The notes under the pieces are model-generated. The model was not told the origin of the DNA. It was given only the letters and a program-made list of their open reading frames with translations, and made no database searches. A stretch of 58,547 nucleotides of DNA from IMG/VR virus record IMGVR_UViG_3300027861_000035, positions 1 to 58,547 of that record; one strand, written 5' to 3'. Shown here piece by piece: positions 5,202 through 25,151 of the stretch; position 1 is the stretch's first letter, and each line of letters begins with the position of its first letter. The stretch comes from a virus. The position numbers and the translations under genes are program-made.

Positions 5202-5211
5202 GGAAAACACT

Positions 5212-6015: not shown

Positions 6016-6024
6016 TTAAAACTT

Positions 6025-6153: not shown

Positions 6154-6157
6154 TACT

Positions 6158-7518: not shown

Positions 7519-7568
7519 AATAGGCGTTCCTAAAAATATATAGGGTGTTCCTCTATAAAAACCACTAG

Positions 7569-7907: not shown

Positions 7908-7988
7908 AGTAAAATATTTAGGGACCCTGACTATTATAGTGTAAGAGATGGGTGCTTAAACGCCCCGACCCCCCTACCTAAACACAAC

Positions 7989-8603: not shown

Positions 8604-8607
8604 TACT

Positions 8608-8805
8608 ATGAAAGATAACAAAAAAATGACTGACGATGAGATAGAGGACCTCGTTAAGAAGACTATGGATGAGGTGATGGCTGCTATTACCCCTGGGTTA
8701 GAGGCTAAACATACTGAGTACATGGAGAAGCGAGCTAAGGAGAGGGCTGAGGCTGAGAAGGCTGAGGCTGAACTTGAGGAAGATGATGAAGATGATGAAG
8801 TTTGA
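8608..8805 (+). CDS. acidic coiled-coil protein
   Basis: This 65-residue protein is almost entirely charged helix, with K-E-R-A-E-A-E-K-A-E-A-E repeats and a D/E-only tail (E-E-D-D-E-D-D-E). The ATG at 8608 is preferred over an earlier in-frame start because GAGGGGGAG lies 7 bases upstream, inside the end of the DUF3310 gene. It overlaps the following lipoprotein start. Function unknown. Confidence 0.55.
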   Translation: MKDNKKMTDDEIEDLVKKTMDEVMAAITPGLEAKHTEYMEKRAKERAEAEKAEAELEEDDEDDEV

Positions 8806-9325: not shown

Positions 9326-9326
9326 A

Positions 9327-9530
9327 ATGGATACCACACAACTAAAAGAAAAACACGCTAAACTTGAGAAGCTGTTAAAATCCCAAGAGGATGGGCACGC
9401 AACCAAGTTTATTCACATCGCCTCAGAAGGGGCTTACAGAGCTTCGCGCGAGAGGATTGCAGCCACTTACCAACAACTATCTGATGTTGGGGAACAATTA
9501 GGCATCTTACATCCTGTAAGGATGCGCTAG
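9327..9530 (+). CDS. small helical protein
   Basis: This 67-residue protein is predicted almost wholly helical, with heptad-like Leu spacing in the first 20 residues (L-K-E-K-H-A-K-L-E-K-L-L). The start follows one base after the lipoprotein stop. No known family is recognised. Confidence 0.5.
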   Translation: MDTTQLKEKHAKLEKLLKSQEDGHATKFIHIASEGAYRASRERIAATYQQLSDVGEQLGILHPVRMR

Positions 9531-9548
9531 ACTTTCGAGTAACTAAAC

Positions 9549-9860
9549 ATGAATATTAAAGAATTAGCATTAGTATGTGGCATTGCAGGGGTTATCCCCT
9601 TCGCTACTAGTAACTTCTCCCAGAACCCAGATGGGTTTATCCCTATGTGGTCAGAGCAGAAGGGTAAAGGGTATGAGACTACCCTTCTCAATACTCGCCA
9701 AATTATTAGCATTACACCTATTTTTGACCCTTCTCTAGTACTGTCTAGGGTGCGTAACCCCAAATCTGAATACTTAGATGTTACCTTCTCCGATGGTACA
9801 AGGCTAACTGTTGATGAGCAGTACGAAGAATTTAAGAAACGAGTTAGGGATGGCCGCTAA
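9549..9860 (+). CDS. protein with N-terminal hydrophobic segment
   Basis: The protein has 103 residues. Residues 5-20 are hydrophobic (L-A-L-V-C-G-I-A-G-V-I-P-F-A), which could be an uncleaved anchor or a weak signal peptide. The remainder has alternating beta-type segments ending in V-T-F-S-D-G-T-R-L-T-V-D. Not recognised. It is last in the plus-strand series and converges on 9868-10086. Confidence 0.5.
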   Translation: MNIKELALVCGIAGVIPFATSNFSQNPDGFIPMWSEQKGKGYETTLLNTRQIISITPIFDPSLVLSRVRNPKSEYLDVTFSDGTRLTVDEQYEEFKKRVRDGR

Positions 9861-9867
9861 CCAGCGG

Positions 9868-10086
9868 TTACTTTTCCCAGTACATTTGAGACTTGTCAAA
9901 GGGTTTACCGTTTAATTGACCGTCTAAAATTCGTACCATCCGAGTTCTCTCTTCATTCCAATTAGAACGCTCAAGGTCAAATCTTAAAGCATTAGCGTCC
10001 ATCCTCTTTATAAGGAATCTCTCACGGACTATACTGAATATAACCCAAGCTCCTAATACTCCGTACTCTAGTAAAATTTTCTCCAT
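9868..10086 (-). CDS. small membrane protein with cytoplasmic helix
   Basis: The protein has 72 residues. A hydrophobic segment at about residues 5-20 is followed by a long charged helix (R-F-D-L-E-R-S-N-W-N-E-E-R-T-R). Its ATG overlaps the stop of the structural gene upstream (TAATG). This architecture resembles small phage lysis-accessory proteins, but no assignment is justified. Confidence 0.5.
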   Translation of the reverse strand: MEKILLEYGVLGAWVIFSIVRERFLIKRMDANALRFDLERSNWNEERTRMVRILDGQLNGKPFDKSQMYWEK

Positions 10087-11024
10087 TACGTATAGTCGTG
10101 AAACCCAGTATTGTAGTAAGGATTTATAACAATCCTATCGGCTGCTTGAATCCAACTGAAACCATCAGAGACGACTGGAAGGAGTATAGGGAATCTAGAC
10201 TGATAATTACTATTACTCAAGAAGCTGCAGTTATACTCAATAAACTGAATTAAGAATTGTACCCCCGCAACATTATTGCCATACCCTGGTTCTGAAGAGG
10301 TGTTATAACCTCCGCCAGCCATTGGAAAAGTATGACCTGCAAACGTATTCGACCGCCTGATGTAACTCCGCATGTCACCTTCCAGGGGGTCATAAATGTC
10401 GTCAGGGTAGTGCAGATAATCGGCATAGGGTCTCATAATATCGTCAAGACCCCAAGTATGGTTGGTGCCCCCATGGATGGGGGGCGCAACGGACATACCA
10501 TCACTAGTACCAGTTTGAGTTAAAGAGTACGCGGTATGAATAGCGTTAACCCAGGGAACCCTGCTTATGTAAGGTTGGATAGTTTGTACAGACCCTTGAG
10601 GCCCAAACACAAACGCATTACCAGAACCATCAACAGTCCCGTAGGATGTACCAATCTTATCGAATTCATTAGCTAAGACCGAGAACTTTTGAGGTTGGTA
10701 AAAAGCACTGGTACCATAAGTCTGAAATACTTTTTTACAGGAAGTGTGAGCAGTGACATTAAGATGCAGCCTAGTGGCAGTTATATTAAAAGCCTCTGTA
10801 GCGCTAAAGTTACTTAGGTTCCTAAAAGGTATATTAGCTAGACGGGTAGTTACGTATGGGTTCCTAGTATAATCAATAGTTAGCCATTGAGTAATTTCAG
10901 CATAAGCAGAATCAGCGGAAACTGCACCGCTTACTTGGTTTTGTCCTGTTCCTGAAATCCAGGTACCACCCGAAAGGGCGTTATCTACGGGCGCGGGTGT
11001 GGGGGGAAGGGGGGCTTCGGGCAT
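10086..11024 (-). CDS. structural-type protein, unknown
   Basis: The protein has 312 residues. It begins with a Pro-rich stretch (M-P-E-A-P-L-P-P-T-P-A-P) and continues as a Tyr-, Asn-, Ser- and Gly-rich beta-type protein without charged clusters, typical of virion surface proteins. No signal peptide or active-site motif is seen. Upstream, CTAAATATTGTAGAG resembles CTAAATATAGTAGAG before 57199, so both may use the same late promoter type. Confidence 0.55.
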   Translation of the reverse strand: MPEAPLPPTPAPVDNALSGGTWISGTGQNQVSGAVSADSAYAEITQWLTIDYTRNPYVTTRLANIPFRNLSNFSATEAFNITATRLHLNVTAHTSCKKVFQTYGTSAFYQPQKFSVLANEFDKIGTSYGTVDGSGNAFVFGPQGSVQTIQPYISRVPWVNAIHTAYSLTQTGTSDGMSVAPPIHGGTNHTWGLDDIMRPYADYLHYPDDIYDPLEGDMRSYIRRSNTFAGHTFPMAGGGYNTSSEPGYGNNVAGVQFLIQFIEYNCSFLSNSNYQSRFPILLPVVSDGFSWIQAADRIVINPYYNTGFHDYT

Positions 11025-11141
11025 AATGTTATTCTCTACAATATTTAGGGGTTAAGCCTGCACAGTCATTTATTACTTTTTATTTTTTTTTTGAGAATTA
11101 AGACCCTTTTTTTTTAAAGGAGTCCCACCCTACATAACACC

Positions 11142-11477
11142 ATGATAATGTTAAGTGATAGAGCATCCATCGAGGTCGGAAAGATTGTATTTGAACAGAA
11201 GCTCGGAGATGTATGTCTGCGTGTGGGGGTGAAGGGCGGAGGATGTTCTGGATTTTCTTATTCATTGGGGTTCGATGACATTCGGAATAAAACAGACCAA
11301 ATTTCTATTAAAGAATGGCAACCCAAAGATTTGGAGATAGTGTGCGACCCTAAAAGTTTTTTGTATTTGAATAATACCATTATTGATTTTGAGGAAGGTT
11401 TAATGGGTAGAGGTTTCAAATTTGTTAATCCCAACGCTACTAAGTCCTGTGGTTGTGGTGAATCTTTTAGTGTTTAG
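11142..11477 (+). CDS. A-type iron-sulfur carrier (IscA/SufA/HesB family)
   Basis: A-type carriers hold and deliver Fe-S clusters to target proteins. The 111-residue protein has the full family signature: G-V-K-G-G-G-C-S-G-F-S-Y near residue 31 with the first cysteine, D-P-K-S-F-L-Y-L-N near 70, I-D-F-E-E-G-L-M-G-R-G-F-K-F near 82, and the C-terminal C-G-C-G pair. All three cluster-binding cysteines are kept. AAAGGAGT lies about 20 bases upstream. It is divergent from the structural gene 10086-11024. HesB/IscA genes are known as auxiliary metabolic genes in marine phages. Confidence 0.9.
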   Translation: MIMLSDRASIEVGKIVFEQKLGDVCLRVGVKGGGCSGFSYSLGFDDIRNKTDQISIKEWQPKDLEIVCDPKSFLYLNNTIIDFEEGLMGRGFKFVNPNATKSCGCGESFSV

Positions 11478-11615
11478 GAGTCCCTATAGAGAAAGCATGA
11501 ACCTTCGGATATAATGCCTATTCCCAGCTCTCGGATGGGACCCTTAGTGTGGAGTTTTCCGCTGTGAGGCAAAAAGTCTCGTGACCTGCCATAATGGCAG
11601 AGTAAGGCCCAAAAA

Positions 11616-11650
11616 CGCCCTAAGTCCTTACATACCAACGACTTACGACG
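11616..11650. repeat. GTAAGTC-type inverted repeat, copy 1
   Basis: This copy has CCTAAGTCCTTACATACCAA followed by CGACTTACGACG. It is the first copy of a hairpin element that recurs before early promoters at 13420, 14490, 16115, 16729, 17787 and 18980 and, as a perfect palindrome, at 27399. It lies in a 256-base gap after the Fe-S carrier gene that holds no other feature I can name apart from the small CTGCCAT/ATGGCAG inverted repeat at about 11587-11601. Confidence 0.6.
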
Positions 11651-11697
11651 ACTGCCATATATTCTGGTAAAAAGACTGCATTTTTCTCAAGTAGTGC

Positions 11698-11726
11698 TTG
11701 CAATATGGTCGATAATATAATATAAT
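11698..11726 (+). promoter_or_regulatory. sigma70-type promoter, -10 at -13 from ATG
   Basis: TTGCAA (11698-11703), 17-base spacer, TATAAT (11721-11726), then 7 bases to the ATG at 11734. An upstream ATG at 11725 lies inside the -10 box and cannot be transcribed from this promoter. Confidence 0.8.
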
Positions 11727-11733
11727 GAGAAAT

Positions 11734-12255
11734 ATGATAAAATCACTTGTAACGCTGTTAGTTCTATCCACTCCTGTCATGGCACAGTACACACCTCAAC
11801 AGGACACTCTGCTAGACGCTCTGATTGAGGTCGAGTCCAATGGCAAAGATGATGCCGTAGGGGATAATGGGAACGCCATAGGCTGCTTGCAAATCTGGAA
11901 GATATACTGGACGGATGCTGTAGAACGCTCTGGCATCGGTGGCTCGTATAAGGACTGTTATGACCGTGCGTATGCCAAGAGCATTGTAGACGCTTACATG
12001 ACGCGCTACGCCAAAGAAGCGTGGACGAACCCTAAGAAGTTCAACGCTGAGAAGTGTGCCCGAATCCACAACGGCGGACCCAAAGGCTACCGCAAGCAAG
12101 CGACTGAAAAATACTGGAAAAAAGTCCAGAAAGTCCTTGCAATGCCTCACCTAAGCGGGTATAATGCTATACATGAAATCAGTTATCGCCTTTCTACTTG
12201 GTATGCTCTGCACGGCATACCTATTCCCTCCCACGCCAACGGCTGTCCTCTCTGA
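11734..12255 (+). CDS. secreted i-type-lysozyme-like (destabilase) protein
   Basis: The protein has 173 residues. A signal peptide (M-I-K-S-L-V-T-L-L-V-L-S, cleavage after V-M-A) is followed by a domain resembling invertebrate-type lysozyme: L-D-A-L-I-E-V-E-S-N-G with candidate catalytic Glu, G-C-L-Q-I near residue 50, Y-W-T-D-A, Y-K-D-C-Y-D-R-A, V-D-A-Y-M-T-R-Y, and C-A-R-I-H-N-G-G-P-K-G with Y-W-K-K-V near 131. It would cleave peptidoglycan. The cysteine set is smaller than in animal enzymes. The last 35 codons run through the next promoter and gene, so the true functional end may be near residue 136. Confidence 0.7.
   Translation: MIKSLVTLLVLSTPVMAQYTPQQDTLLDALIEVESNGKDDAVGDNGNAIGCLQIWKIYWTDAVERSGIGGSYKDCYDRAYAKSIVDAYMTRYAKEAWTNPKKFNAEKCARIHNGGPKGYRKQATEKYWKKVQKVLAMPHLSGYNAIHEISYRLSTWYALHGIPIPSHANGCPL
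12137..12165 (+). promoter_or_regulatory. sigma70-type promoter inside the lysozyme-like gene
   Basis: TTGCAA (12137-12142), 17-base spacer, TATAAT (12160-12165), then 7 bases to the ATG at 12173. It lies within the 3' part of the preceding gene. Confidence 0.8.
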
Positions 12256-12388
12256 CATGGACAAGCGTGTTATCGCCTATGATGTAATTGAATGGATGGA
12301 CAAGGCAGATTGGGACATTCTAGCTGCCAAGCGTCACCTTATCAGCGCAGGGACAGGTGAAAAGAAATCCTCATTTTGGGGATTTTAA
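12173..12388 (+). CDS. small exported or membrane-anchored protein
   Basis: The protein has 71 residues. An N-terminal hydrophobic segment (S-V-I-A-F-L-L-G-M-L-C-T-A-Y-L-F) is followed by a charged helical domain with I-E-W-M-D-K-A-D-W-D. The start is set by the promoter: the earlier ATG at 12164 overlaps the -10 box. It overlaps the end of the lysozyme-like frame by 83 bases. Function unknown. Confidence 0.6.
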   Translation: MKSVIAFLLGMLCTAYLFPPTPTAVLSDMDKRVIAYDVIEWMDKADWDILAAKRHLISAGTGEKKSSFWGF

Positions 12389-12390
12389 GC

Positions 12391-12419
12391 TTGCAATGTC
12401 TCACCTCATCGGGTATAAT
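12391..12419 (+). promoter_or_regulatory. sigma70-type promoter, leaderless geometry
   Basis: TTGCAA (12391-12396), 17-base spacer, TATAAT (12414-12419), 6 bases (GTAAAC) to ATG 12426. The predicted +1 is the A of the ATG. Confidence 0.82.
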
Positions 12420-12425
12420 GTAAAC

Positions 12426-12572
12426 ATGATAAAAGAAACCAGTTACTACACACAGGCTTTGGAATTTCCCCTCTTCCTGAACTTCCTACTCGCTGAACTC
12501 ATGATGAACTCAAGCGAGGACACGCTAGAAGCCGCTTCCCTCAAGTTCTTGGAGCAGAGCCAAAATGCTTGA
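12426..12572 (+). CDS. 48-residue early protein
   Basis: The small protein has an aromatic and hydrophobic middle (L-E-F-P-L-F-L-N-F-L-L-A-E-L-M-M) that could be a short amphipathic or membrane helix, and an acidic C-terminal half. The start is fixed by the promoter 6 bases upstream. It overlaps the next micro-ORF by 8 bases. Not recognised. Confidence 0.55.
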   Translation: MIKETSYYTQALEFPLFLNFLLAELMMNSSEDTLEAASLKFLEQSQNA

Positions 12573-12654
12573 TGTTCTACTTGCCTTGAATATGCTTGGA
12601 CTCGGGTTCTGCGGCGGCTGGCTTATATTTCAGTCGCAACCCCCTACAGACTAA
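12565..12654 (+). CDS. 29-residue putative membrane micropeptide
   Basis: The ATG lies inside the end of the previous gene. The product is one hydrophobic helix (L-D-V-L-L-A-L-N-M-L-G-L-G-F) with a G-G-W-L-I-F segment and a polar tail. Coupling to the preceding gene is likely. Support is limited to position and hydrophobicity. Confidence 0.35.
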   Translation: MLDVLLALNMLGLGFCGGWLIFQSQPPTD

Positions 12655-12692
12655 CGACTTACGAAAACTTACGCATTTCACCAAAATAGGTG

Positions 12693-12721
12693 TTGCATTC
12701 ACACACTCCATCGAGTATAAT
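12693..12721 (+). promoter_or_regulatory. sigma70-type promoter, leaderless geometry
   Basis: TTGCAT (12693-12698), 17-base spacer, TATAAT (12716-12721), 6 bases (GATAAT) to ATG 12728. Confidence 0.8.
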
Positions 12722-12727
12722 GATAAT

Positions 12728-12955
12728 ATGATAAACAACGATACACAAGCCGTACGCGATGCGGTCAATGCTGGCATCTCTGTCCTCCTTCCTGGATTGG
12801 TAGATGATTATACCCTTACCCAAGAAGAGGGTTACACGCCTCAACAGGCTTTCCATCGGGTTGCTCTCGGGCTTGCCAAGAGGTGCGAAATCACTGCTGG
12901 CGAAGCTGAGACGGTTACACGCTACACGCTTACCAAGTTGGGGGTTTCCGTATGA
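12728..12955 (+). CDS. 75-residue early protein
   Basis: This soluble, mostly helical protein contains L-T-Q-E-E-G-Y-T-P-Q-Q-A-F and I-T-A-G-E-A-E-T-V-T-R segments. The start at 12728 follows from the promoter; longer frames would run through the -10 box. Its stop overlaps the ATG of the next gene (ATGA), so the two and the following micro-ORF form a small operon. Not recognised. Confidence 0.6.
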   Translation: MINNDTQAVRDAVNAGISVLLPGLVDDYTLTQEEGYTPQQAFHRVALGLAKRCEITAGEAETVTRYTLTKLGVSV

Positions 12956-13281
12956 ATCGCCAGTTGATAATGTCTATCAAGACTAGAAGCGAAGGCTTTC
13001 AGATATACTTTGATGAGGGCTTCAAGCTCAGCATCGGTACGGGCAGCAGGCACCATTGCGACAATAGCGGGAACGGGACTGCACCTGGAGGTGAAAAAGC
13101 CACTAGCACAATGGAAGTGGCTTTGATGAACTCAATGGATGATTTCGTAGTCCTTCCAGATGATGTTGCGGGGTGGGTTCCTGTCAACCGTCTTGCGGCT
13201 ATTATTCAAGCAGTTAGCGACAAGCGTTGGAACGATTTCGAGAACCTATGCACTGCAACCGAGGAGTATTACCATGCATGA
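12952..13281 (+). CDS. 109-residue early protein
   Basis: Second gene of the 12728 operon (ATGA overlap). The N-terminal half has alternating strands (F-Q-I-Y-F-D-E-G-F-K-L-S-I) and a Gly/Asn-rich loop. The C-terminal half is helical (V-N-R-L-A-A-I-I-Q-A-V). An internal ATG at 12970 is an alternative start. No domain is recognised. Confidence 0.55.
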   Translation: MNRQLIMSIKTRSEGFQIYFDEGFKLSIGTGSRHHCDNSGNGTAPGGEKATSTMEVALMNSMDDFVVLPDDVAGWVPVNRLAAIIQAVSDKRWNDFENLCTATEEYYHA

Positions 13282-13390
13282 GCCCAGAGAACGCGATGGA
13301 AGCGTATTCCTAGGAGTGTGTTCCTCGTTTGCTATTTCAGCCCTATTCTATGCATTTTTATATTGGGTAATCTTTGGTCATTGGGGTTGA
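13274..13390 (+). CDS. 38-residue single-span membrane protein
   Basis: The ATG overlaps the end of the previous gene by 8 bases. A charged N-terminus (M-H-E-P-R-E-R-D-G-S) precedes one strongly hydrophobic helix (about residues 12-35) ending in F-G-H-W-G. It is third in the 12728 operon. Function unknown. Confidence 0.5.
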   Translation: MHEPRERDGSVFLGVCSSFAISALFYAFLYWVIFGHWG

Positions 13391-13400
13391 TAAAATTCGG

Positions 13401-13479
13401 GGCGCGGGCCCCGCGTCGCCGTAAGTCCTTACACAGCAACGAGTTACAACGGCCAATTTCTTCAATTTAGTTCTTGCTA
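13401..13479 (+). repeat. early-promoter cassette repeat, copy A
   Basis: The copy consists of a GC-rich palindrome (GCGCGGGCCCCGCG, 13402-13415), then GTAAGTCCTTACACAGCAAC with GAGTTAC, then a conserved stretch GGCCAATTTCTTCAATTTAG that ends in the -35 box. The same 80-base module occurs at 14471 and 16098 with few changes. Confidence 0.8.
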
Positions 13480-13502
13480 TCCCTACACGCAGCGAGTATA
13501 AT
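13474..13502 (+). promoter_or_regulatory. sigma70-type promoter
   Basis: TTGCTA (13474-13479), 17-base spacer, TATAAT (13497-13502), 7 bases to ATG 13510. The ATG at 13474-13510 in the longer frame begins before the transcript and is rejected. Confidence 0.8.
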
Positions 13503-13509
13503 GTACAAC

Positions 13510-13737
13510 ATGAAAATGACCAAGCAACACTTCCAAGCCTTAGCCGAAACCTGCGCCCTTATTATCCTCGACATAGAAAAAAATGAAATATGGGAAGAGG
13601 GCTTGAGCGATGGCAAGCAAGGCGAACAGGTGATTCGCAGATTTCAAGAACTGTGCAAAGGGAGCAGCGACGCTTTCAACCCGCACCGATTCGTGATGGC
13701 TGTGCAGCACGCCGTGAACTCCCAAGAAAAAAACTGA
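13510..13737 (+). CDS. 75-residue early protein
   Basis: A soluble alpha-helical protein with mixed charge (K-Q-H-F-Q-A-L-A-E-T-C, I-L-D-I-E-K-N-E-I-W-E-E-G). Start fixed by the promoter. It is a single-gene transcript, since the next promoter starts 9 bases after its stop. Not recognised. Confidence 0.6.
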   Translation: MKMTKQHFQALAETCALIILDIEKNEIWEEGLSDGKQGEQVIRRFQELCKGSSDAFNPHRFVMAVQHAVNSQEKN

Positions 13738-13745
13738 AATAGTCC

Positions 13746-13774
13746 TTGCAATCCAACCCCTTACCTCGTATAAT
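13746..13774 (+). promoter_or_regulatory. sigma70-type promoter
   Basis: TTGCAA (13746-13751), 17-base spacer, TATAAT (13769-13774), 7 bases to ATG 13782. Confidence 0.8.
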
Positions 13775-13781
13775 GTACAAC

Positions 13782-14051
13782 ATGAACAAGCCCAGCACCT
13801 TTGACCCCGCTTACCCTACTTCCAACGCCTTTGAAATGGAAGACCGTCCCGATTGCATGACCTGCTGCGATAGCGGCACATTCTATGACGATGACGGGGA
13901 CATGGATTTCTGCGAATGCGCTACGGGCATGATTGCCACGGAAGAGGCGATGGAGCAAGAACGGAACGGGGGGGATAACGGTTTCGATGATGAGGGCGCG
14001 TTTACCTCGATAGGCTGGGGAGAGGATGAAAGTTACGGGTATTATGGTTGA
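13782..14051 (+). CDS. acidic protein with a four-to-five-cysteine knuckle
   Basis: This 89-residue, very acidic protein has C-M-T-C-C near residue 25 and C-E-C near 44, a spacing that could hold a zinc ion in a small rubredoxin-type knuckle. The C-terminal 30 residues are Gly-, Glu-, Asp- and Tyr-rich and end in E-S-Y-G-Y-Y-G. Start fixed by the promoter. A protein-binding takeover factor is conceivable, but no family is recognised. Confidence 0.55.
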   Translation: MNKPSTFDPAYPTSNAFEMEDRPDCMTCCDSGTFYDDDGDMDFCECATGMIATEEAMEQERNGGDNGFDDEGAFTSIGWGEDESYGYYG

Positions 14052-14076
14052 CAGGGCGTTGTCCTTTTGATATAAT
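14048..14076 (+). promoter_or_regulatory. strong consensus sigma70 promoter for a structured leader
   Basis: TTGACA (14048-14053), 17-base spacer, TATAAT (14071-14076). It is the best match to consensus in the block. Unlike its neighbours it is followed not by an ATG but by a hairpin-rich leader of about 116 bases. The -35 box overlaps the preceding stop codon. Confidence 0.85.
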
Positions 14077-14083
14077 ACGCGCT

Positions 14084-14137
14084 AGGGTTACGGACGGCAC
14101 CCACACAAGAACGTCCGTAGGGTTTCGAGTCCCTGTC
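14084..14137 (+). ncRNA. structured leader or small RNA before the KTSC gene
   Basis: Starting at the predicted +1, ACGGACG pairs perfectly with CGTCCGT (15-base loop), followed directly by AGGG-TTTCGAGT-CCCT, which looks like a tRNA T-arm but with an 8-base loop. The 5' AGGG could compete for the same CCCT, offering two alternative folds. No cloverleaf fits. It is either a regulatory 5' UTR of 14200-14394 or a separate small RNA. Confidence 0.45.
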
Positions 14138-14199
14138 AGAAAAACTCGATTTCCACACTTTTTGACGTAAACCCAAACCCTTCAAAGGGGTATAAAGAT

Positions 14200-14394
14200 A
14201 TGACCAGTTCTTGGATTGATTCTATTCAGTATAACGACTCCAGTAGCTCAGCTACTATGACCCTCACCAACGGGAATTGCTACGACATTGCACCGATGGA
14301 CCGTAAGACGTTCTCGGAATGGGAAGGCGCGGAAAGCACGGGGGAGTTTTATAATAAGACCCTGCGCGATTCGCTCACCGTGACCAAGCTGTGA
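14200..14394 (+). CDS. KTSC-domain protein
   Basis: This 64-residue protein matches the small KTSC domain: M-T-S-S-W-I-D-S-I-Q-Y-N-D at the start, a central L-T-N-G-N-C-Y-D-I strand pair, and S-T-G-E-F-Y-N-K-T-L-R-D-S near the end. The biochemical role of KTSC is unsettled; members occur alone or fused to nucleic-acid enzymes. Unlike the other early genes it has a Shine-Dalgarno-like AAAGGGG (14181-14187) and a long structured leader. Confidence 0.7.
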   Translation: MTSSWIDSIQYNDSSSSATMTLTNGNCYDIAPMDRKTFSEWEGAESTGEFYNKTLRDSLTVTKL

Positions 14395-14470
14395 TGCTAT
14401 AAAAAACGTGTTCGGCGGCTAACCACGGAAACAAACCGCCAACCCCGTATTTTATGCTTGCAATTTTTTA

Positions 14471-14550
14471 GGCGCGGGGCCCCGCGCCGTCGTAAGTCCT
14501 TGAAGAGCAACGGGTTACAACGGCCAATTTCTTCAATTTAGTTCTTGCTA
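14471..14550 (+). repeat. early-promoter cassette repeat, copy B
   Basis: A perfect 18-base palindrome (GGCGCGGGGCCCCGCGCC, 14471-14488) is followed by GTCGTAAGTCCTTGAAGAGC, GGGTTACAAC and the same GGCCAATTTCTTCAATTTAG stretch as copy A, up to the -35 box. Confidence 0.8.
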
Positions 14551-14573
14551 TCCCTACACGCAGCGAGTATAAT
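14545..14573 (+). promoter_or_regulatory. sigma70-type promoter, leaderless geometry
   Basis: TTGCTA (14545-14550), 17-base spacer, TATAAT (14568-14573), 6 bases (GATAAC) to ATG 14580. The spacer is identical to that of the promoter at 13474. Confidence 0.82.
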
Positions 14574-14579
14574 GATAAC

Positions 14580-14699
14580 ATGAAAAATATCCAGTACAAC
14601 CTAACCCTTCCCGTCTTCATCATCGGGGGCTTCATGTTCGTTTGCGCTTTCGGCGCTGTCGTTAGCATCATCGAAGCCATTCTTGGTACGCTCTCATGA
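14580..14699 (+). CDS. 39-residue membrane protein, paralog 1
   Basis: M-K-N-I-Q-Y-N-L-T-L-P-V-F-I-I-G-G leads into one long hydrophobic helix (residues about 10-36) ending in L-G-T-L-S. The protein at 16204-16320 has the same length, start (M-K-N-N-L-Y-N-L-D-L-P-I-F-I) and end (T-G-T-L), and sits behind the same cassette. Both are therefore real genes. Function unknown. Confidence 0.65.
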   Translation: MKNIQYNLTLPVFIIGGFMFVCAFGAVVSIIEAILGTLS

Positions 14700-14911
14700 A
14701 AAAACTACCTGAAAATGCAAAGTTCCCCGTGCCCTCTGGTCCTACCGCTTATTGGGATGAAAAGGATTGGTACGATTGGTGGAAAATGACGGGGGGAAGG
14801 CTTGACCCGAACCCTCATTATGTGAACCCTGACCCTATGCCTCCCATGAGCTACAAGGACACGCTGGAGATGATGAAATTTCTTCAAGATAATATCCAAG
14901 ATGGTGCTTGA
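14696..14911 (+). CDS. 71-residue Trp/Pro-rich early protein
   Basis: Starts at an ATGA overlap with the membrane protein before it. The sequence is rich in Pro, Trp, Tyr and Asp (Y-W-D-E-K-D-W-Y-D-W-W) and then turns helical (Y-K-D-T-L-E-M-M-K-F-L-Q-D). Not recognised. Its position, second after a duplicated membrane gene, mirrors 16320-16538, but the two second genes are not obviously related. Confidence 0.55.
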   Translation: MKKLPENAKFPVPSGPTAYWDEKDWYDWWKMTGGRLDPNPHYVNPDPMPPMSYKDTLEMMKFLQDNIQDGA

Positions 14912-14936
14912 CACCTCAGCCCTCATCGGGTATAAT
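14908..14936 (+). promoter_or_regulatory. sigma70-type promoter, leaderless geometry
   Basis: TTGACA (14908-14913), 17-base spacer, TATAAT (14931-14936), 6 bases (GTAAAC) to ATG 14943. Confidence 0.85.
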
Positions 14937-14942
14937 GTAAAC

Positions 14943-15071
14943 ATGAAAGATAATAACACTAACTGGACCATCGCCATCATCGGCGCTTCGGCTGCCGTGT
15001 CCTGCGTGGTTTACCTGTACGCCTTCAAAGTGGTCGCTATGCTGTCTGGTATGTTAGGACCGTGCGACTAA
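14943..15071 (+). CDS. 42-residue single-span membrane protein
   Basis: A polar start (M-K-D-N-N-T-N-W) is followed by one hydrophobic helix (about 9-36) and a short C-terminal G-P-C-D. It is a monocistronic unit between two promoters. Function unknown. Confidence 0.55.
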   Translation: MKDNNTNWTIAIIGASAAVSCVVYLYAFKVVAMLSGMLGPCD

Positions 15072-15090
15072 ACTTTTTCCGATAAAACAC

Positions 15091-15119
15091 TTGACTTCAC
15101 GACCCTCATCGGGTATAAT
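15091..15119 (+). promoter_or_regulatory. sigma70-type promoter, leaderless geometry
   Basis: TTGACT (15091-15096), 17-base spacer, TATAAT (15114-15119), 6 bases (ACAAAC) to ATG 15126. Confidence 0.82.
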
Positions 15120-15125
15120 ACAAAC

Positions 15126-15359
15126 ATGAAAAACAACCAATACTCTCTTGAAGCTACCTTCAAGCACCAAGGCATCGAGCAGATGCTTTCCAATCTTACG
15201 GGCGTTTCCCGTGTGGGCGCGGTTGCCGAAGGGTCTTGCGCCACCTGTTCGGGTGAGGCTTCCGAGTTCCGTGATGCCCTCTCCCAAAAGGAGTACACCA
15301 TTTCAGCGATGTGCCAGACCTGCCAAGACGAGGTGTTTGGCGCGGGTGAGGATAACTAG
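15126..15359 (+). CDS. zinc-ribbon-like early protein
   Basis: The 77-residue protein carries C-A-T-C near residue 38 and C-Q-T-C near 64, two Cys-x-x-Cys knuckles 26 residues apart, as in small zinc ribbons. The start follows the promoter by six bases. It is followed after one base by the next gene, with which it forms an operon. A nucleic-acid or RNA-polymerase binding role is possible, but only by analogy. Confidence 0.6.
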   Translation: MKNNQYSLEATFKHQGIEQMLSNLTGVSRVGAVAEGSCATCSGEASEFRDALSQKEYTISAMCQTCQDEVFGAGEDN

Positions 15360-15360
15360 C

Positions 15361-15756
15361 ATGGACATATCCATTATCCAGCATAGCTCATTCACCGCGC
15401 TAGACGATAGGGCTTTGCTGTCTAACGAGTGCCTATCCTACATGGGGATGCAAACCTCTAACGAGGTGAAGAGATGCATCGAAGCCACTTTCTTCAAAGG
15501 GTATTCAATCAAGGACGATTTTGACCATAACGCTATCGAGGTACACGATGCACTCGTTATCAACTGCTTGGTTGGAATGCAGCACGAAGCAATCCAAACG
15601 GGCGGGTCTTCAAATTGGAGAGGTATTCTAAACTCCTACGATATGCCCAAAGCCTATCGGGATAGTTTCGAGCTACTCCAAGACGATGATGACCGAATGA
15701 AGGGGATGATGACCGCACGGGAGTTCAGCGAAGCAATGGGCGACAAGCACAACTAA
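15361..15756 (+). CDS. 131-residue early protein
   Basis: Second gene of the 15126 operon. The longer in-frame ORF that begins at 15148 is a shadow of the previous gene; the ATG at 15361 lies one base after that gene's stop. Helical, acidic, with no membrane span; contains F-K-G-Y-S-I-K-D-D-F-D and D-D-D-D-R-M-K-G-M-M. Not recognised. A terminator-like hairpin follows. Confidence 0.55.
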   Translation: MDISIIQHSSFTALDDRALLSNECLSYMGMQTSNEVKRCIEATFFKGYSIKDDFDHNAIEVHDALVINCLVGMQHEAIQTGGSSNWRGILNSYDMPKAYRDSFELLQDDDDRMKGMMTAREFSEAMGDKHN

Positions 15757-15777
15757 CTGGTTGTTTTTCATCGCCTT

Positions 15778-15808
15778 GGGGAGCGGGCGATAAACGCTCC
15801 CCCTCTTT
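15778..15808 (+). terminator. GC-rich terminator-like hairpin
   Basis: GGGGAGCG pairs with CGCTCCCC (9-base loop), followed by CTCTTT. ATCGCC just upstream can instead pair with GGCGAT in the loop, giving an alternative fold, so termination could be conditional. Confidence 0.65.
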
Positions 15809-15828
15809 CACAACAAAATCACGGAGAG

Positions 15829-16040
15829 CATCGCGAGCTTTGCAAGGCTTGCGATGAGAGCGTCAGGTAACGCCCCCGATAACTGGGGGGTATCCTCGGA
15901 TAAATGCGTGCGGGAGAGGGGGTTGTTCCCCGTTGACGGGCTAAGGTGCCAGAGAACCCAAACGCAAGTAACGCCAAGAAGAACCAAACTACAGTTTTAC
16001 AGGCTGCGTATGCCGTTCAAATACGCTTCTTGGTGTGGGT
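15829..16040 (+). ncRNA. hairpin-rich stretch, possible structured RNA
   Basis: No convincing gene lies between 15757 and 16098. The stretch holds a 10-bp hairpin (15829-15838 with 15847-15856), a C5/G5 hairpin (15873-15890) and a G4/C4 hairpin (15918-15931), and is GC-richer than the surroundings. A 62-codon frame (15854-16042) crosses them but has Arg- and Cys-rich, shadow-like composition and no promoter or ribosome site. No known RNA family is recognised. Confidence 0.35.
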
Positions 16041-16097
16041 AATAAAGTAATCCCCACCGCTCTAGCCTCTCCACCTTTAACCTTGACATAAATTCTG

Positions 16098-16174
16098 GCG
16101 GGGGCCGCGAAACACGTAAGTCCTTACACAGCAACGAGTTACAACGGCCAATTTCTTCAATTTAGTTCTAGCTA
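16098..16174 (+). repeat. early-promoter cassette repeat, copy C
   Basis: The GC part is shortened (GCGGGGGCCGC, 16098-16108). The GTAAGTCCTTACACAGCAAC/GAGTTAC part and the GGCCAATTTCTTCAATTTAG stretch are identical to copy A, but the -35 box is changed from TTGCTA to TAGCTA. Confidence 0.8.
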
Positions 16175-16197
16175 TTCGGGGTATGGTTTATTAAAAT
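16169..16197 (+). promoter_or_regulatory. weaker sigma70-type promoter, leaderless geometry
   Basis: TAGCTA (16169-16174), 17-base spacer, TAAAAT (16192-16197), 6 bases (GGGGAC) to ATG 16204. Both boxes are one step further from consensus than in copies A and B. Confidence 0.65.
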
Positions 16198-16203
16198 GGG
16201 GAC

Positions 16204-16320
16204 ATGAAAAATAACCTGTACAACCTTGACCTTCCCATCTTCATCGGTGGAAGCTTCATCCTCATATGCCTTGGCTCTGCCCTCGGCATCATCATCCAAG
16301 CCCTTACGGGGACTCTCTAA
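16204..16320 (+). CDS. 38-residue membrane protein, paralog 2
   Basis: M-K-N-N-L-Y-N-L-D-L-P-I-F-I-G-G then one hydrophobic helix ending in L-T-G-T-L. Paralog of 14580-14699, behind a copy of the same promoter cassette. Its stop overlaps the next ATG (TAATG). Confidence 0.65.
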   Translation: MKNNLYNLDLPIFIGGSFILICLGSALGIIIQALTGTL

Positions 16321-16538
16321 TGAAACCTCAATTTGATTTGTTTGAAGCCACCTTTGGTGAGTGGCTGAATGAGTTGTCTCTGATGAATTATGATGAGAGT
16401 CCTCACTTGAAAGATATTCTTGCTGACCTGTACAACGAGGGGCTTACCCCCTTGGATGCGCGGGATGCTTTGGAAGTGTATCACCCTGAATGGCATAGCG
16501 AGCTAGTATATTTGGAGGAGCATCCCGTTATTTTCTAG
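16320..16538 (+). CDS. 72-residue acidic early protein
   Basis: The start at 16320 is chosen from the TAATG overlap; a longer frame from 16266 lies inside the previous gene. Acidic and helical, with F-E-A-T-F-G-E-W-L-N-E-L, L-K-D-I-L-A-D-L-Y and E-W-H-S-E-L-V-Y-L-E-E-H. Not recognised. The 293 bases that follow hold no gene: an AAAAAGC/GCTTTTT hairpin near 16640, small GCCA/TGGC repeats, and then the next cassette. Confidence 0.55.
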   Translation: MKPQFDLFEATFGEWLNELSLMNYDESPHLKDILADLYNEGLTPLDARDALEVYHPEWHSELVYLEEHPVIF

Positions 16539-16708
16539 GAATAAGGCCCGTGTGTACCATATGGTGCAATTCGGGAAAAAGTGCTACCAAAACACAGTAG
16601 ATTTTGACATAAGCGCATGTTCAAAAAAAAGGGGTTCTAAAAAGCTGATTTTCTCCGCTTTTTGCCATCTTGGCAGAACATAGTGACCCAAACCCTGTCA
16701 AAATGGCA

Positions 16709-16762
16709 GGCGCGGGGCCCCGCGCCGTCGTAAGTCCTTGGTACTGCACGACTTACGTTTTT
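16709..16762 (+). terminator. GC palindrome plus GTAAGTC hairpin and U-tract
   Basis: Perfect palindrome GGCGCGGGGCCCCGCGCC (16709-16726), then CGTAAGTC (16729-16736) pairing with GACTTACG (16750-16757), followed by five Ts. In this copy the hairpin plus T-run looks like a Rho-independent terminator set just before the next promoter. Confidence 0.7.
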
Positions 16763-16796
16763 CTCACATTTTCACGCATTTTACCCATCTAGGCTA

Positions 16797-16825
16797 TTGA
16801 CACGGCACCCCCCATAGTTTACAAT
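16797..16825 (+). promoter_or_regulatory. sigma70-type promoter, leaderless geometry
   Basis: TTGACA (16797-16802), 17-base spacer, TACAAT (16820-16825), 6 bases (GGCGGA) to ATG 16832. Confidence 0.8.
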
Positions 16826-16831
16826 GGCGGA

Positions 16832-17506
16832 ATGAAAGTACAAAGCATATTCCAGAAGTCGCTCCGCACACCCGTAGAAGGTAAGACCCTCAAAAAAGGG
16901 AGCGGAAATAAAAAGTTAGGGTTCGTGGTTAGTTCAAAGAAGTGGAAAGGGAAAAGATTATATTCTCTCACGCTGGAAGAAAGAACAACTTGCCCCACTA
17001 CTTGTCATCATTGGAATGATTGTTATGGGAATAATATGCCATTCGCGCACCGATTCAAGCCTCACAATATAGATATAATTTTGGAGCGTGAAATTGAAAC
17101 ATTGCTCGCGAAACATAAACATGGCATCGTCATTCGATTACATGTTCTAGGTGATTTTTATTCCGTAGATTATATTCAGTTCTGGCGAGAGATGCTAGAA
17201 AAGCACTCGAAACTTTGCTTGTTTGGTTATACCGCTCGCAAGGGAGATAATATTGCACACGCTATTTGGAGGCTGAATAATGAATATCCTGACCGTTGCG
17301 TTATTCGTCATTCGGGGAATAAAGCGTACGATGGTAAACTAGTCCCCACGCAAGGACCATTCAAAGAAAATTGGAGCTATGCCGCCGATGAATCATTTGA
17401 GGGCAAGTCCTTTGATTGTCCAGAACAGACAGGAAAAGTCAAAGATTGTGCCTCATGTGGATTATGCTGGATGACCACAAAAACAGTTAGATTTGCAACC
17501 CACTAA
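16832..17506 (+). CDS. GP88-like protein with two cysteine clusters
   Basis: The protein has 224 residues. It resembles the phage 'gene product 88' family: C-P-T-T-C-H-H-W-N-D-C-Y near residue 54, a central I-R-L-H-V-L-G-D-F-Y-S-V-D-Y-I-x-F-W-R near 105, and C-P-E-Q-T-G-K-x-x-x-C-A-S-C-G-L-C-W near the C-terminus. The two cysteine clusters could bind zinc or an iron-sulfur cluster. The family's biochemical role is not known to me. It is followed after 19 bases by a small zinc-ribbon gene with its own ribosome site, forming an operon. Confidence 0.65.
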   Translation: MKVQSIFQKSLRTPVEGKTLKKGSGNKKLGFVVSSKKWKGKRLYSLTLEERTTCPTTCHHWNDCYGNNMPFAHRFKPHNIDIILEREIETLLAKHKHGIVIRLHVLGDFYSVDYIQFWREMLEKHSKLCLFGYTARKGDNIAHAIWRLNNEYPDRCVIRHSGNKAYDGKLVPTQGPFKENWSYAADESFEGKSFDCPEQTGKVKDCASCGLCWMTTKTVRFATH

Positions 17507-17525
17507 AATAATAAAAGGAGATAAA

Positions 17526-17729
17526 ATGATTACAATATGTTCAGATTGCGGTGGAAGAGATATTCACCAACAAGGAAGCGTTATGGTCCCGATAAACAAA
17601 CCTAATTCCGAGGAGAAAGCCGATAAAATATTAGCTAATTTATGGATGGATGATTATTATTGGTGCATGGATTGTTTGGAAGAATGTACAATTGAAGAGG
17701 TCGAAGATAAAGAAATATTCAGGGGTTGA
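17526..17729 (+). CDS. small zinc-ribbon-like protein
   Basis: The protein has 67 residues. AAGGAG (17514-17519) ends six bases before the ATG at 17526, so this start is preferred over an in-frame start at 17493 inside the previous gene. C-S-D-C near residue 5 and C-M-D-C-L-E-E-C near 49 give a four-cysteine zinc ribbon. The use of a Shine-Dalgarno sequence for this second gene of an operon, while the first gene has none, is informative. Confidence 0.65.
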   Translation: MITICSDCGGRDIHQQGSVMVPINKPNSEEKADKILANLWMDDYYWCMDCLEECTIEEVEDKEIFRG

Positions 17730-17768
17730 ATAATAATAAAATCCTCAAAATATAAATATAAAATAGGG

Positions 17769-17821
17769 GCGGGGGCCCCGATTCGTCGTAAGTCCTTGGT
17801 ACTACACGACTTACGTTTTTT
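17769..17821 (+). terminator. GC-rich block plus GTAAGTC hairpin and U-tract
   Basis: GCGGGGGCCCCG, then CGTAAGTC (17787-17794) pairing with GACTTACG (17808-17815), then six Ts. Nearly identical to the element at 16709 and again placed just before an early promoter. Confidence 0.7.
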
Positions 17822-17844
17822 CACGCATTTTCTTTATTTAGTAC

Positions 17845-17873
17845 TTGCGTCTGGGCACGGGAGCGGGTATAAT
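17845..17873 (+). promoter_or_regulatory. sigma70-type promoter, leaderless geometry
   Basis: TTGCGT (17845-17850), 17-base spacer, TATAAT (17868-17873), 6 bases (GTAAGC) to ATG 17880. Confidence 0.82.
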
Positions 17874-17879
17874 GTAAGC

Positions 17880-18116
17880 ATGAAACAAAATCACAACACT
17901 CTCAGAAACAACACTCTCAACCTCATTTCCCGCGTTCTCGGGAGTCATTTTGCGATGGCTCATAATTCCAGGCTGTTTACTCCCGCCTATGCCTTGAGGA
18001 CGCTAGATGCTTATCGCTCCGTGCGTAGACGCTTGCCCGTTATGGCTTGCGGAAAGCACTACGGTAACCACGCTGGCTCTAAACGTAAACCTTACGAGGC
18101 AACGCAAGGGAACTAG
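17880..18116 (+). CDS. basic 78-residue early protein
   Basis: The start is fixed by the promoter. The protein is strongly basic and Asn-, Arg- and His-rich (M-K-Q-N-H-N-T-L-R-N-N, then R-S-V-R-R-R-L, K-R-K at the end), which suggests nucleic-acid or ribosome binding. It ends 8 bases before the tmRNA-like RNA at 18125 and is probably on the same transcript. A functional link between the two is an attractive guess, not shown. Not recognised. Confidence 0.55.
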   Translation: MKQNHNTLRNNTLNLISRVLGSHFAMAHNSRLFTPAYALRTLDAYRSVRRRLPVMACGKHYGNHAGSKRKPYEATQGN

Positions 18117-18124
18117 ACCCTTCG

Positions 18125-18207
18125 GGGGGTGTACTGGTATCGACACGTGGGAACGCCCCTTGCGGGAACTTGCGTGGAACGGGGTTCGAATCCCCGCACC
18201 TCCTCCA
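18125..18207 (+). ncRNA. tmRNA-like tRNA domain without tag region
   Basis: The 83-nt segment has a 7-bp acceptor stem (GGGGGTG with CACCTCC) containing a G3-U70 wobble, the main alanine identity element. This is followed by TACTGGTATCGACA, which matches the conserved tmRNA 5' D-loop region, then about 34 bases, then a perfect T-arm (CGGGG-TTCGAAT-CCCCG) and an encoded CCA after U73. There is no anticodon arm of normal type and no room for a tag reading frame or pseudoknots. It looks like the tRNA-like half of tmRNA only. The U discriminator is unusual, since A is expected. Confidence 0.6.
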
Positions 18208-18241
18208 CTCAACCTAGACGAGCATTTTCCTCAGATAGGGC

Positions 18242-18270
18242 TTGACTTTTGACTTTTCTTACAGTATAAT
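18242..18270 (+). promoter_or_regulatory. sigma70-type promoter, leaderless geometry
   Basis: TTGACT (18242-18247), 17-base spacer, TATAAT (18265-18270), 6 bases (AAGCAT) to ATG 18277. The -35 region is the first copy of the TTGACTTTT motif that recurs downstream. Confidence 0.82.
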
Positions 18271-18276
18271 AAGCAT

Positions 18277-18399
18277 ATGTCTCACTACGACCCGCTCGAA
18301 AGAGCCCAATTCTTTTTCTATCTCGCAGGCGGTTGCCTGTTCACGGTGGTATTCTCCACCTATATCCTGTGGTTCTGTGGAGTGAACCCAGGGACTTGA
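18277..18399 (+). CDS. 40-residue single-span membrane protein
   Basis: M-S-H-Y-D-P-L-E-R-A-Q precedes one hydrophobic helix (about 12-35) containing G-G-C-L-F. Start fixed by promoter geometry. Its last codons overlap a TTGACTTTTC motif. Function unknown. Confidence 0.5.
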   Translation: MSHYDPLERAQFFFYLAGGCLFTVVFSTYILWFCGVNPGT

Positions 18400-18429
18400 C
18401 TTTTCTTGAAAGTTTCCCCACTTTAGGGC

Positions 18430-18457
18430 TTGACTTTCTCTTTCCTTATGGTATAAT
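18430..18457 (+). promoter_or_regulatory. sigma70-type promoter with a normal leader
   Basis: TTGACT (18430-18435), 16-base spacer, TATAAT (18452-18457). The predicted start is near 18464, leaving a leader of about 52 bases before ATG 18516. It is one of the few early promoters not set against its start codon. Confidence 0.75.
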
Positions 18458-18515
18458 GATACCATACAACGAGGGCAACCCCCTCTCTCACTAACATTTT
18501 ACTAGGTAACAAATT

Positions 18516-18860
18516 ATGACTAAGCATCGTCCCGTCTCTGACCGTATTGCGGAAACGCAAGCACAACTCGCCGCTCTCATCGCCAAGGAGAACAAAGCGC
18601 AAATCAACGAATCCCCTGAGATTCAGGCTCTTGATGAGAAAATCAAAGCCGTTCAGGTATCCATGCTGAAGTTCAACCGTTGGGCTTCAGAGGGAGAGGA
18701 TAAGATTGAGAACTTCAAGGCACGGGTAGTGGAGTGGCAAGAACGCCTCTCCGAAGCTACCACGAAGCGCAAGGAGGCGAATATCCAAATTGAGGCTTTG
18801 CGCTCTACGCGGAAGGCTCTGGCTGAAACCCTTGCTAGTGAGATAGGTCTGGAGGCGTAA
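18516..18860 (+). CDS. coiled-coil early protein
   Basis: The protein has 114 residues, almost entirely helical with heptad spacing: an N-terminal segment (R-I-A-E-T-Q-A-Q-L-A-A-L-I), a middle K-I-K-A-V-Q-V-S-M-L-K-F and a C-terminal R-L-S-E-A-T-T-K-R-K-E-A-N. It would form a dimeric or antiparallel coiled coil. A weak ACTAGGTAAC precedes the ATG. Last protein gene of the early block. Confidence 0.6.
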   Translation: MTKHRPVSDRIAETQAQLAALIAKENKAQINESPEIQALDEKIKAVQVSMLKFNRWASEGEDKIENFKARVVEWQERLSEATTKRKEANIQIEALRSTRKALAETLASEIGLEA

Positions 18861-18949
18861 GCCTCCCCTCGTCTGAGCGAGGTAAAATAGGGTTTAGGCT
18901 CAGAGCGCCCCTGAAAGCCCTAGTGGTTAGTAGGGGGGTTCTTACTTGA

Positions 18950-19005
18950 CACGACCCCGCACGCGGGGCCCCAATCGACCTAAGTCCTTGGTACTAAAGG
19001 GGTTA
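18950..19005 (+). repeat. GC palindrome and GTAAGTC-like element, last plus-strand copy
   Basis: CCCCGCACGCGGGGCCCC is followed by CCTAAGTCCTTGGTACTAAA and GGGTTACGC. The pairing is weaker than in the other copies. It stands at the left of a 1.1-kb stretch (18861-19972) that holds a tRNA, TTGACTTTT motifs and terminators but no protein gene I can support. Confidence 0.5.
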
Positions 19006-19232
19006 CGCACGGTGAAATTTCATACTCTTTTGGCGGATTTCCCAAAGTAATGGTATTTTTTCCACTATTACCTAAAACATTAGGTGATTCAAATGCGTCA
19101 TGGTATAATGGTAGCATCGAAAGGCTATTGCAGCTCATCGGTACTCTTGGAGGGCGGAAAAGCAAGCCCGTATAAAAACTAAACGCTTTTTCGCTCTCTT
19201 ACAATTAGGTTATAAAAATTAAAGTCTTCGGT

Positions 19233-19310
19233 AGGGGGATAGCACAATCAGGTTAGTGCATTCATCTTATATATGAAAGGTTATGGGTTCGAATCCCATT
19301 CCCCCTACCA
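19233..19310 (+). tRNA. tRNA-Ile(UAU)
   Basis: A full cloverleaf can be drawn: acceptor AGGGGGA with TCCCCCT, D-stem GCAC/GTGC with loop AATCAGGTTA, anticodon stem TTCAT/ATGAA with loop CTTATAT (anticodon UAU), variable AGGTT, T-arm ATGGG-TTCGAAT-CCCAT, A73 and an encoded CCA. It should read the isoleucine codon AUA. Most bacteria read AUA with a lysidine-modified CAU anticodon instead, so this tRNA bypasses the need for that enzyme. Confidence 0.9.
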
Positions 19311-19377
19311 ACTTTACATAGTTGTATGTGATACAAGTTACCTCCCTAGCGTAGGGGCTGCCCGCTGGAGCTGCCAC

Positions 19378-19706
19378 TTGACTTTTCTCGTTCGACCCAC
19401 GAGCAGATTTTGCTTCCAGTTTAATGTGTGTTTCGTGCATGTTTACGAGTGTGAAAAATCCAAACTTGACTTTTCTTAGTGATTTTTGTATAAGGGGTGC
19501 ATAGATAGAAACCCCCTCCTGTGAGCTGTAAGGCGCACGCACTTGACTTTTCCTTCTGAGGGGATTTCATGGGGTTAAAATGGGGGTTTGACTTTTCTTA
19601 GTGAGAGGTGGCTTATGCTACCTCTCTTTTTTTTTACTTCGCCCCTATGTGGGGGGGCGTAGTTTGACTTTCTCTGTCTGAGCCCAAAATTGGGACTTGA
19701 CTTTTA
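19378..19706 (+). repeat. array of TTGACTTTTC motifs
   Basis: Six direct copies of TTGACTTTT(C/A) or TTGACTTTC occur at 19378, 19466, 19543, 19588, 19664 and 19697, continuing three at 18242, 18396 and 18430. The copy at 19466 is followed 17 bases on by TATAAG and could be a promoter; the others lack a -10 box. The spacing is irregular. Confidence 0.6.
19603..19635 (+). terminator. strong Rho-independent terminator
   Basis: GAGAGGTGGC pairs with GCTACCTCTC (one G-U pair, TTAT loop) and is followed by nine Ts. It closes the plus-strand early and tRNA region. Confidence 0.9.
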
Positions 19707-19888
19707 CCAATACTAGCATTGTAAGTATGAAAGTAGGGTTGTAATGCGCCATAAATATCGAATAATCGCTCGTATGTCGTATCTAATTCAAGTCTTATGC
19801 CACCAAACTCTTACTAATCCTTGTTTTTTTAGCTACTAATGAGATTTAATACCCTAGTGAGGGGTATAGCTTATAAGAAATAAGAAAC

Positions 19889-19932
19889 AAAAAAACAGCC
19901 TTAACACCCCCACAACAGGGATACTAAGACTG
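19889..19932 (-). terminator. Rho-independent terminator of the 20-27 kb operon
   Basis: On the minus strand ACAGTCTTA pairs with TAAGGCTGT (one wobble), with an inner CCC/GGG pairing, followed by seven Ts. It lies 41 bases after the last minus-strand gene. Confidence 0.75.
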
Positions 19933-19972
19933 TCCATTTGATAAACATCAAACTAAAAGGGAACAAACAATG

Positions 19973-20179
19973 CTATTCCTCCCCCCAATTTCCTTTCTTT
20001 ATGAAAGATTTTACCCCACGGTAAGCTAACAATCTACCCTCTATACACTCTGTTATGTCCTTACCCCCATCAGTAACTACGGGTGGGTATTTAAGAAGTG
20101 CGGTATCCGTATCTATACTTTCCTCTAAGTAGGATAGTATATCTTCTACACCCTGAGTTCGTGATTCTTCTTTGTGCAT
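19973..20179 (-). CDS. small acidic protein
   Basis: The protein has 68 residues: E-D-I-L-S-Y-L-E-E-S-I-D-T-D-T, then C-I-E-G-R-L-L-A-Y-R-G-V-K-S-F-I-K-K. It overlaps the end of the glycosyltransferase-like gene by 34 bases, with no better internal start. Last gene of the minus operon. Not recognised. Confidence 0.5.
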   Translation of the reverse strand: MHKEESRTQGVEDILSYLEESIDTDTALLKYPPVVTDGGKDITECIEGRLLAYRGVKSFIKKGNWGEE

Positions 20180-21261: not shown

Positions 21262-21272
21262 AAGTATTATAG

Positions 21273-25147: not shown

Positions 25148-25151
25148 GGTT

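Follow-up and report, generated by a model that had tools for sequence, protein, structure and literature searches.

How are genes read when their promoter runs directly into the start codon and leaves no space for a ribosome-binding leader? The question is raised by a plus-strand block of tiny open reading frames (ORFs) that opens at position 11,698 of a 58,547-base virus record (IMG/VR record IMGVR_UViG_3300027861_000035; this whole stretch is called the window below). We read the window as a fragment of a contractile-tailed phage encoding tail sheath, tail tube, DNA polymerase, DnaB helicase, a UvsX-like recombinase, an SbcCD-like nuclease and ribonucleotide reductase. An earlier note on this DNA had proposed thirteen early units in the block, each with a -35-like box, a 17-base spacer and a -10 box ending 6 or 7 bases before the start codon, and had suggested that their mRNAs are leaderless. 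Our analysis makes it highly probable that the block consists of arrayed, compact promoter-ORF cassettes that would yield leaderless mRNAs through the host sigma70 polymerase and Shine-Dalgarno (SD)-independent ribosomes.

All thirteen start codons exist and each is preceded by a -10 box at the proposed distance, which is 6 nt in nine units (12426, 12728, 14580, 14943, 15126, 16204, 16832, 17880 and 18277) and 7 nt in four (11734, 12173, 13510 and 13782). The promoter architecture was as described in twelve units, with a TTG-type -35, a spacer of exactly 17 nt and TATAAT or TACAAT, whereas unit 16204 is weak and degenerate (-35 CTAGCT, -10 TAAAAT). The four units with 7-nt spacing carry an additional in-frame ATG within the -10 box, which cannot be part of the mRNA made from that promoter. 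Second cistrons begin at stop/start overlaps (ATGA at 12952 and 14696, TAATG at 16320), and the TGA stops of upstream ORFs at 14049 and 14909 are embedded in the next TTGACA -35 (14048-14053 and 14908-14913); the packing of the block is therefore extreme. The units and their contrast case are as follows (aa, amino acids).

11698..12255, plus strand: unit 1, TTGCAA-N17-TATAAT-N7-ATG 11734; 173-aa Destabilase (i-type lysozyme) with a signal-like N-terminus
12137..12388, plus strand: unit 2, TTGCAA-N17-TATAAT-N7-ATG 12173; 71 aa, promoter within the end of the preceding ORF
12391..12572, plus strand: unit 3, TTGCAA-N17-TATAAT-N6-ATG 12426; 48 aa
12693..12955, plus strand: unit 4, TTGCAT-N17-TATAAT-N6-ATG 12728; 75 aa
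12952..13281, plus strand: second cistron of unit 4, start overlapping the upstream stop (ATGA); putatively translationally coupled
13474..13737, plus strand: unit 5, TTGCTA-N17-TATAAT-N7-ATG 13510; 75 aa
13746..14051, plus strand: unit 6, TTGCAA-N17-TATAAT-N7-ATG 13782; 89 aa, stop TGA within the next TTGACA
14048..14394, plus strand: contrast case, TTGACA-N17-TATAAT (14071), a long leader, then the KTSC-domain gene 14200
14545..14699, plus strand: unit 7, TTGCTA-N17-TATAAT-N6-ATG 14580; 39 aa, upstream region 95% identical to that of unit 5
14696..14911, plus strand: second cistron of unit 7, ATGA overlap; stop TGA within the unit 8 -35 TTGACA
14908..15071, plus strand: unit 8, TTGACA-N17-TATAAT-N6-ATG 14943; 42 aa
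15091..15359, plus strand: unit 9, TTGACT-N17-TATAAT-N6-ATG 15126; 77 aa, Cys-rich, homologues in contigs G003, G006 and L220
16169..16320, plus strand: unit 10 (weak), CTAGCT / TAAAAT-N6-ATG 16204; 38 aa, degenerate copy of unit 7
16320..16538, plus strand: second cistron of unit 10, TAATG stop/start overlap
16797..17506, plus strand: unit 11, TTGACA-N17-TACAAT-N6-ATG 16832; 224-aa GP88-family protein, geometry kept in relatives
17845..18116, plus strand: unit 12, TTGCGT-N17-TATAAT-N6-ATG 17880; 78 aa
18242..18399, plus strand: unit 13, TTGACT-N17-TATAAT-N6-ATG 18277; 40 aa

The -10 geometry by itself was mildly enriched. TATAAT-N6-ATG with one mismatch allowed and no -35 requirement occurred 29 times in the whole window, barely above the shuffles (mean 21.3; 4 of 100 reached 29). 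When a -35 was required, ten promoters had an ATG at 6 or 7 nt, compared with a shuffle mean of 0.30 and a maximum of 1. We repeated the -35-requiring test on contigs obtained via protein homology or a single seed motif, and the excess recurred in G004 (9 versus 0.43 in shuffles), G007 (12 versus 0.7, with six further at 5 nt), G006 (6 versus 0.07), G002 (3 versus 0.2) and G005 (3 versus 0.13). The spacing histogram had its sole peak at 6 (5-7) nt and for ATG only; GTG, TTG and CTG gave no comparable peak in the window or the tested contigs. A scan of the IMG/VR viral collection for TTGACA-N17-TATAAT-N5-CATGAAA (6-nt spacing) returned at least 120 stretches, and the full IMG/VR scan with five bases added to the spacing (N11) returned 22.

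The signals at the start codons are consistent with this geometry. An SD core (AGGA, GGAG or GAGG) at -18 to -4 was present in none of the thirteen units (the earlier note had said that none fits in the gap) and in 21 of the 72 other window genes (background positions: 12 and 7), so that SD use is low in the rest of the window. The base preceding ATG was C in 84 of 101 distinct units pooled across phages (59/68 at N6, 16/21 at N7, 9/12 at N5); within the window this applied to 9/13 leaderless units and 12/72 other genes (p = 0.0003). This C travels with the ATG and not with the -10 box over spacings of 5, 6 and 7 nt. Bacterial RNA polymerase prefers to start at a purine (+1) that follows a pyrimidine (-1), and transcription starting at the A of AUG is therefore the simplest reading. 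The codons following ATG are A-rich in leaderless units (p = 0.01). The sequence marks of a sigma70 -10-adjacent leaderless gene were found: a -10 box that precedes the start codon by 5-8 nt more often than chance predicts, absence of SD, and a pyrimidine/purine step resembling an initiator where the coding sequence begins. The messages of the block almost certainly begin at AUG without a ribosome-binding leader, a reading strongly supported by spacing, C at -1, ATG-only use, SD absence and the persistence of the arrangement in divergent phages.

About ten other phage contigs contain blocks filled with this geometry. The block is present in a near-identical 82.7-kb contig (G001), and a distant relative (G003, 129.9 kb), which has sheath, polymerase, helicase, recombinase and more in common with the window at 28-68% identity, carries leaderless units of its own. 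Further blocks comprise 13 units in L220, 9 in L187, 8 in L192 and 6 in L146, with none at control spacings on the same strand; L187 and L192 have no detectable protein homology to the window. The N6 count over the fetched loci includes the seeds used to fetch them and is not counted as evidence of enrichment. The GP88-family gene (16832 in the window) starts 6-8 nt past a -10 box in most closer relatives checked, and two more distant homologues, from Roseobacter and Sphingomonas phages, are located in ordinary gene runs. An apparent orthologue of 17880 is leaderless in L026 and L028 and follows a leader that includes an AGAGGA SD in L282, so the state can switch. No match of the block to named phages was found by blastn, and no -35/-10-N6/7-ATG peak was present in T4 (50 kb), P-SSM2 (50 kb) or phiYS40 (150 kb).

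Several observations weigh against our reading. Two consensus promoters in the block have leaders, 14071 (followed by gene 14200) and 18452 (followed by gene 18516); all others abut an ATG, but the rule has exceptions. The first 40 nt of the units are predicted to fold no less strongly than those of other genes, and no difference was seen. A leader of 1-2 nt is compatible with the data, as the 5' ends are predictions from sequence. Finally, some units are recent copies, which inflates the counts: the upstream cassettes of 13510 and 14580 are 95% identical, and the region upstream of 16204, at 67% identity to that cassette, is a degenerate copy (other pairs: 60-66%). The thirteen units are therefore not all independent, and of the deliberate strategy that the earlier note had suggested, what is supported is selection on the geometry.

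In the proposed cassette, a host-type sigma70 promoter (TTGNNN-N17-TATAAT) is fused to the start codon, with transcription predicted to start at the A of AUG. Host RNA polymerase would make leaderless mRNAs, on which host ribosomes (70S, or 30S with IF2 and fMet-tRNA) would initiate at the 5'-terminal AUG without SD pairing; a second cistron, if any, would be translated through the stop/start overlap. Each unit, with a control region of only ~45 bp, is probably a portable promoter-ORF cassette. Such self-contained units may allow small accessory genes to be duplicated and shuffled, and the design should function under any ribosome-binding preference of the host. Early expression is plausible, judging by the host-type promoters and tiny ORFs. 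That 70S ribosomes serve when host initiation is changed is a conjecture of the earlier note; unmodified host ribosomes that translate leaderless mRNA normally fit the data equally well. The window, G001, G003 and G007 showed no phage-encoded bS21, which might have shifted initiation.

The phage might instead follow the habit of an actinobacterial or Deinococcus-like host that uses leaderless genes widely, which we regard as possible but doubtful. In Actinobacteria and Deinococcus-Thermus, leaderless genes make up about 20% or more of the total (PMC3160421), and the low SD use among the other window genes points the same way. However, a scan of 85,462 species genomes for GP88 matched one record, the Prochlorococcus single-cell assembly AG-409-P03, in which a 130.6-kb contig (L282; QCKN01000003.1, 130,604 bp) is a relative of the window phage with the same blocks. 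The non-phage contigs of this assembly show no excess of TATAAT-N6-ATG (7 versus 7 of the reversed pattern in the whole assembly), and the -35-containing pattern occurs 0-1 times per genome in many genomes of the cyanobacteria phylum. The single-cell association is itself weak, a host lead and not an assignment: the GP88 gene was found in 1 of 300 family genomes, with no other carrier, and the cyanophage mark psbA is absent from G001, G003 and G007.

Leaders of 1-3 nt, with ribosome loading that is 30S-dependent and SD-free, are an unlikely alternative to true leaderlessness. Sigma70 start choice shifts by 1-2 nt and purines are frequent at -2 of the units, but whether the spacing is 5, 6 or 7 nt, the C adjoins the A of ATG, as predicted for a start at that position.

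That the geometry is mostly inheritance, one promoter cassette having abutted an ATG by chance and been copied often, with a leaderless state that serves no purpose in itself, is very improbable, for although the upstream identities given above and repeat families extending into the first codons of genes speak for copying, the spacing, -1 C and ATG stay constant while spacers, discriminators and genes vary widely among phages, blocks exist in L187 and L192 despite the lack of detectable protein homology to the window, and convergence of unrelated upstream sequences on the same spacing is largely shown.

The leaderless cassettes are accompanied by a second class of promoter-like boxes and by a dyad.

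4369..43097, window: CTATAATA box with no -35, 3-4 nt ahead of the start codon, at 4369 (plus strand) and at 21271, 28790, 29471 and 43097 (minus strand)
11621..17818, plus strand: dyad TAAGT-N16-ACTTA/GTTA between genes, preceded by a GC-rich palindrome, near 11621, 13422, 14493, 16117, 16731 and 17789

The CTATAATA box also stands 4 nt before starts in relatives (L009-L020); these boxes are likely candidate phage late promoters resembling the T4 type, and would likewise give leaderless mRNA. The dyad begins ~85-115 nt upstream of the leaderless ATG and recurs in L282, L039, L044, L052, L053, L220, L187, L192 and L146. It is a candidate terminator, operator or cassette boundary. Because the search pattern demanded the outer pair and the alignment had misplaced members, we describe it as a sequence pattern and not as an RNA structure.

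Two kinds of small RNA recur within the leaderless blocks of several phages.

tmRNA (transfer-messenger RNA)-like RNA: window 18125-18207; L282 3956-4036; L053 12375-12454; L044 4138-4220 (minus strand); L052 13959-14041
Pistol ribozyme: window 18867-18943; L282 1621-1716; L044 5471-5534 (minus strand); L052 9872-9957; L220 2768-2853 (minus strand); L187 323-383 (minus strand)

The tmRNA-like RNAs (80-83 nt) consist of a tRNA-like domain only, without the tag-coding part, score above the Rfam tmRNA cut-off and have a readable alanine-type G3-U70 pair. They could be tmRNA/SmpB decoys or a tRNA-like class not yet known. A wider proposal, which we consider improbable, is that a wide range of aquatic phages run their takeover genes on a dedicated SD-independent programme (leaderless sigma70 cassettes and later leaderless CTATAATA genes, perhaps with tmRNA-like RNAs) in hosts with few leaderless mRNAs of their own, so that phage messages could be translated while SD-led host initiation is disabled.

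Leaderless genes adjacent to a -10 box are established in Actinobacteria and Deinococcus-Thermus (PMC3160421, PMC12340547). Like the block, they lack an SD, carry a TAtaaT-like box ~12 nt before the start and are transcribed from the start codon on (predicted for the block); unlike them, the block has strong TTGACA-type -35 boxes at 16-17 nt, ATG only, a preceding C and massed phage cassettes. In the Thermus phage phiYS40, according to a review (PMC3594737, citing Sevostyanova 2007), middle and late mRNAs are leaderless, IF2 rises and IF3 falls. Both phiYS40 and the window phage encode a contractile-tail sheath, and the many leaderless mRNAs of phiYS40 have a counterpart in those predicted for the window, but the phiYS40 ones are middle/late. 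The phiYS40 host belongs to a leaderless-rich phylum. As 150 kb of the phiYS40 genome, unlike the block, show no sigma70 -35/-10-N6/7-ATG peak, the block is not of the phiYS40 type at the sequence level. The lambda cI message made from PRM is a leaderless phage mRNA with a sigma70 promoter and a 5'-terminal AUG; it has phage origin, promoter type and terminal AUG in common with the block but stands alone, where the block is an array. The morons of phages are self-contained promoter-ORF-terminator units, in most cases prophage insertions whose mRNAs have leaders. Like them, the block units are small accessory ORFs that each carry a promoter, and many lie behind a GC-rich palindrome and are duplicated as cassettes, but in the block the promoter is fused to the start codon. 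Leaders are present on the late mRNAs of T4, and T4-type late promoters (TATAAATA) lack a -35; the CTATAATA boxes of the window likewise lack one and stand ahead of larger genes, but 3-4 nt before the start codon.

Our search of a literature library found no description of massed sigma70 leaderless cassettes in phages. Leaderless genes in bacteria and phages are known; massed near-consensus leaderless cassettes across phages look new. If our reading is true, leaderless initiation would be a modular design across phages and not an isolated curiosity. The sequence rule TATAAT-N6-ATG with C at -1 could then pinpoint where tiny phage ORFs, which gene callers can overlook, truly start, and the cassettes would be natural short promoter-start modules for testing what ribosomes need at a 5'-terminal AUG.

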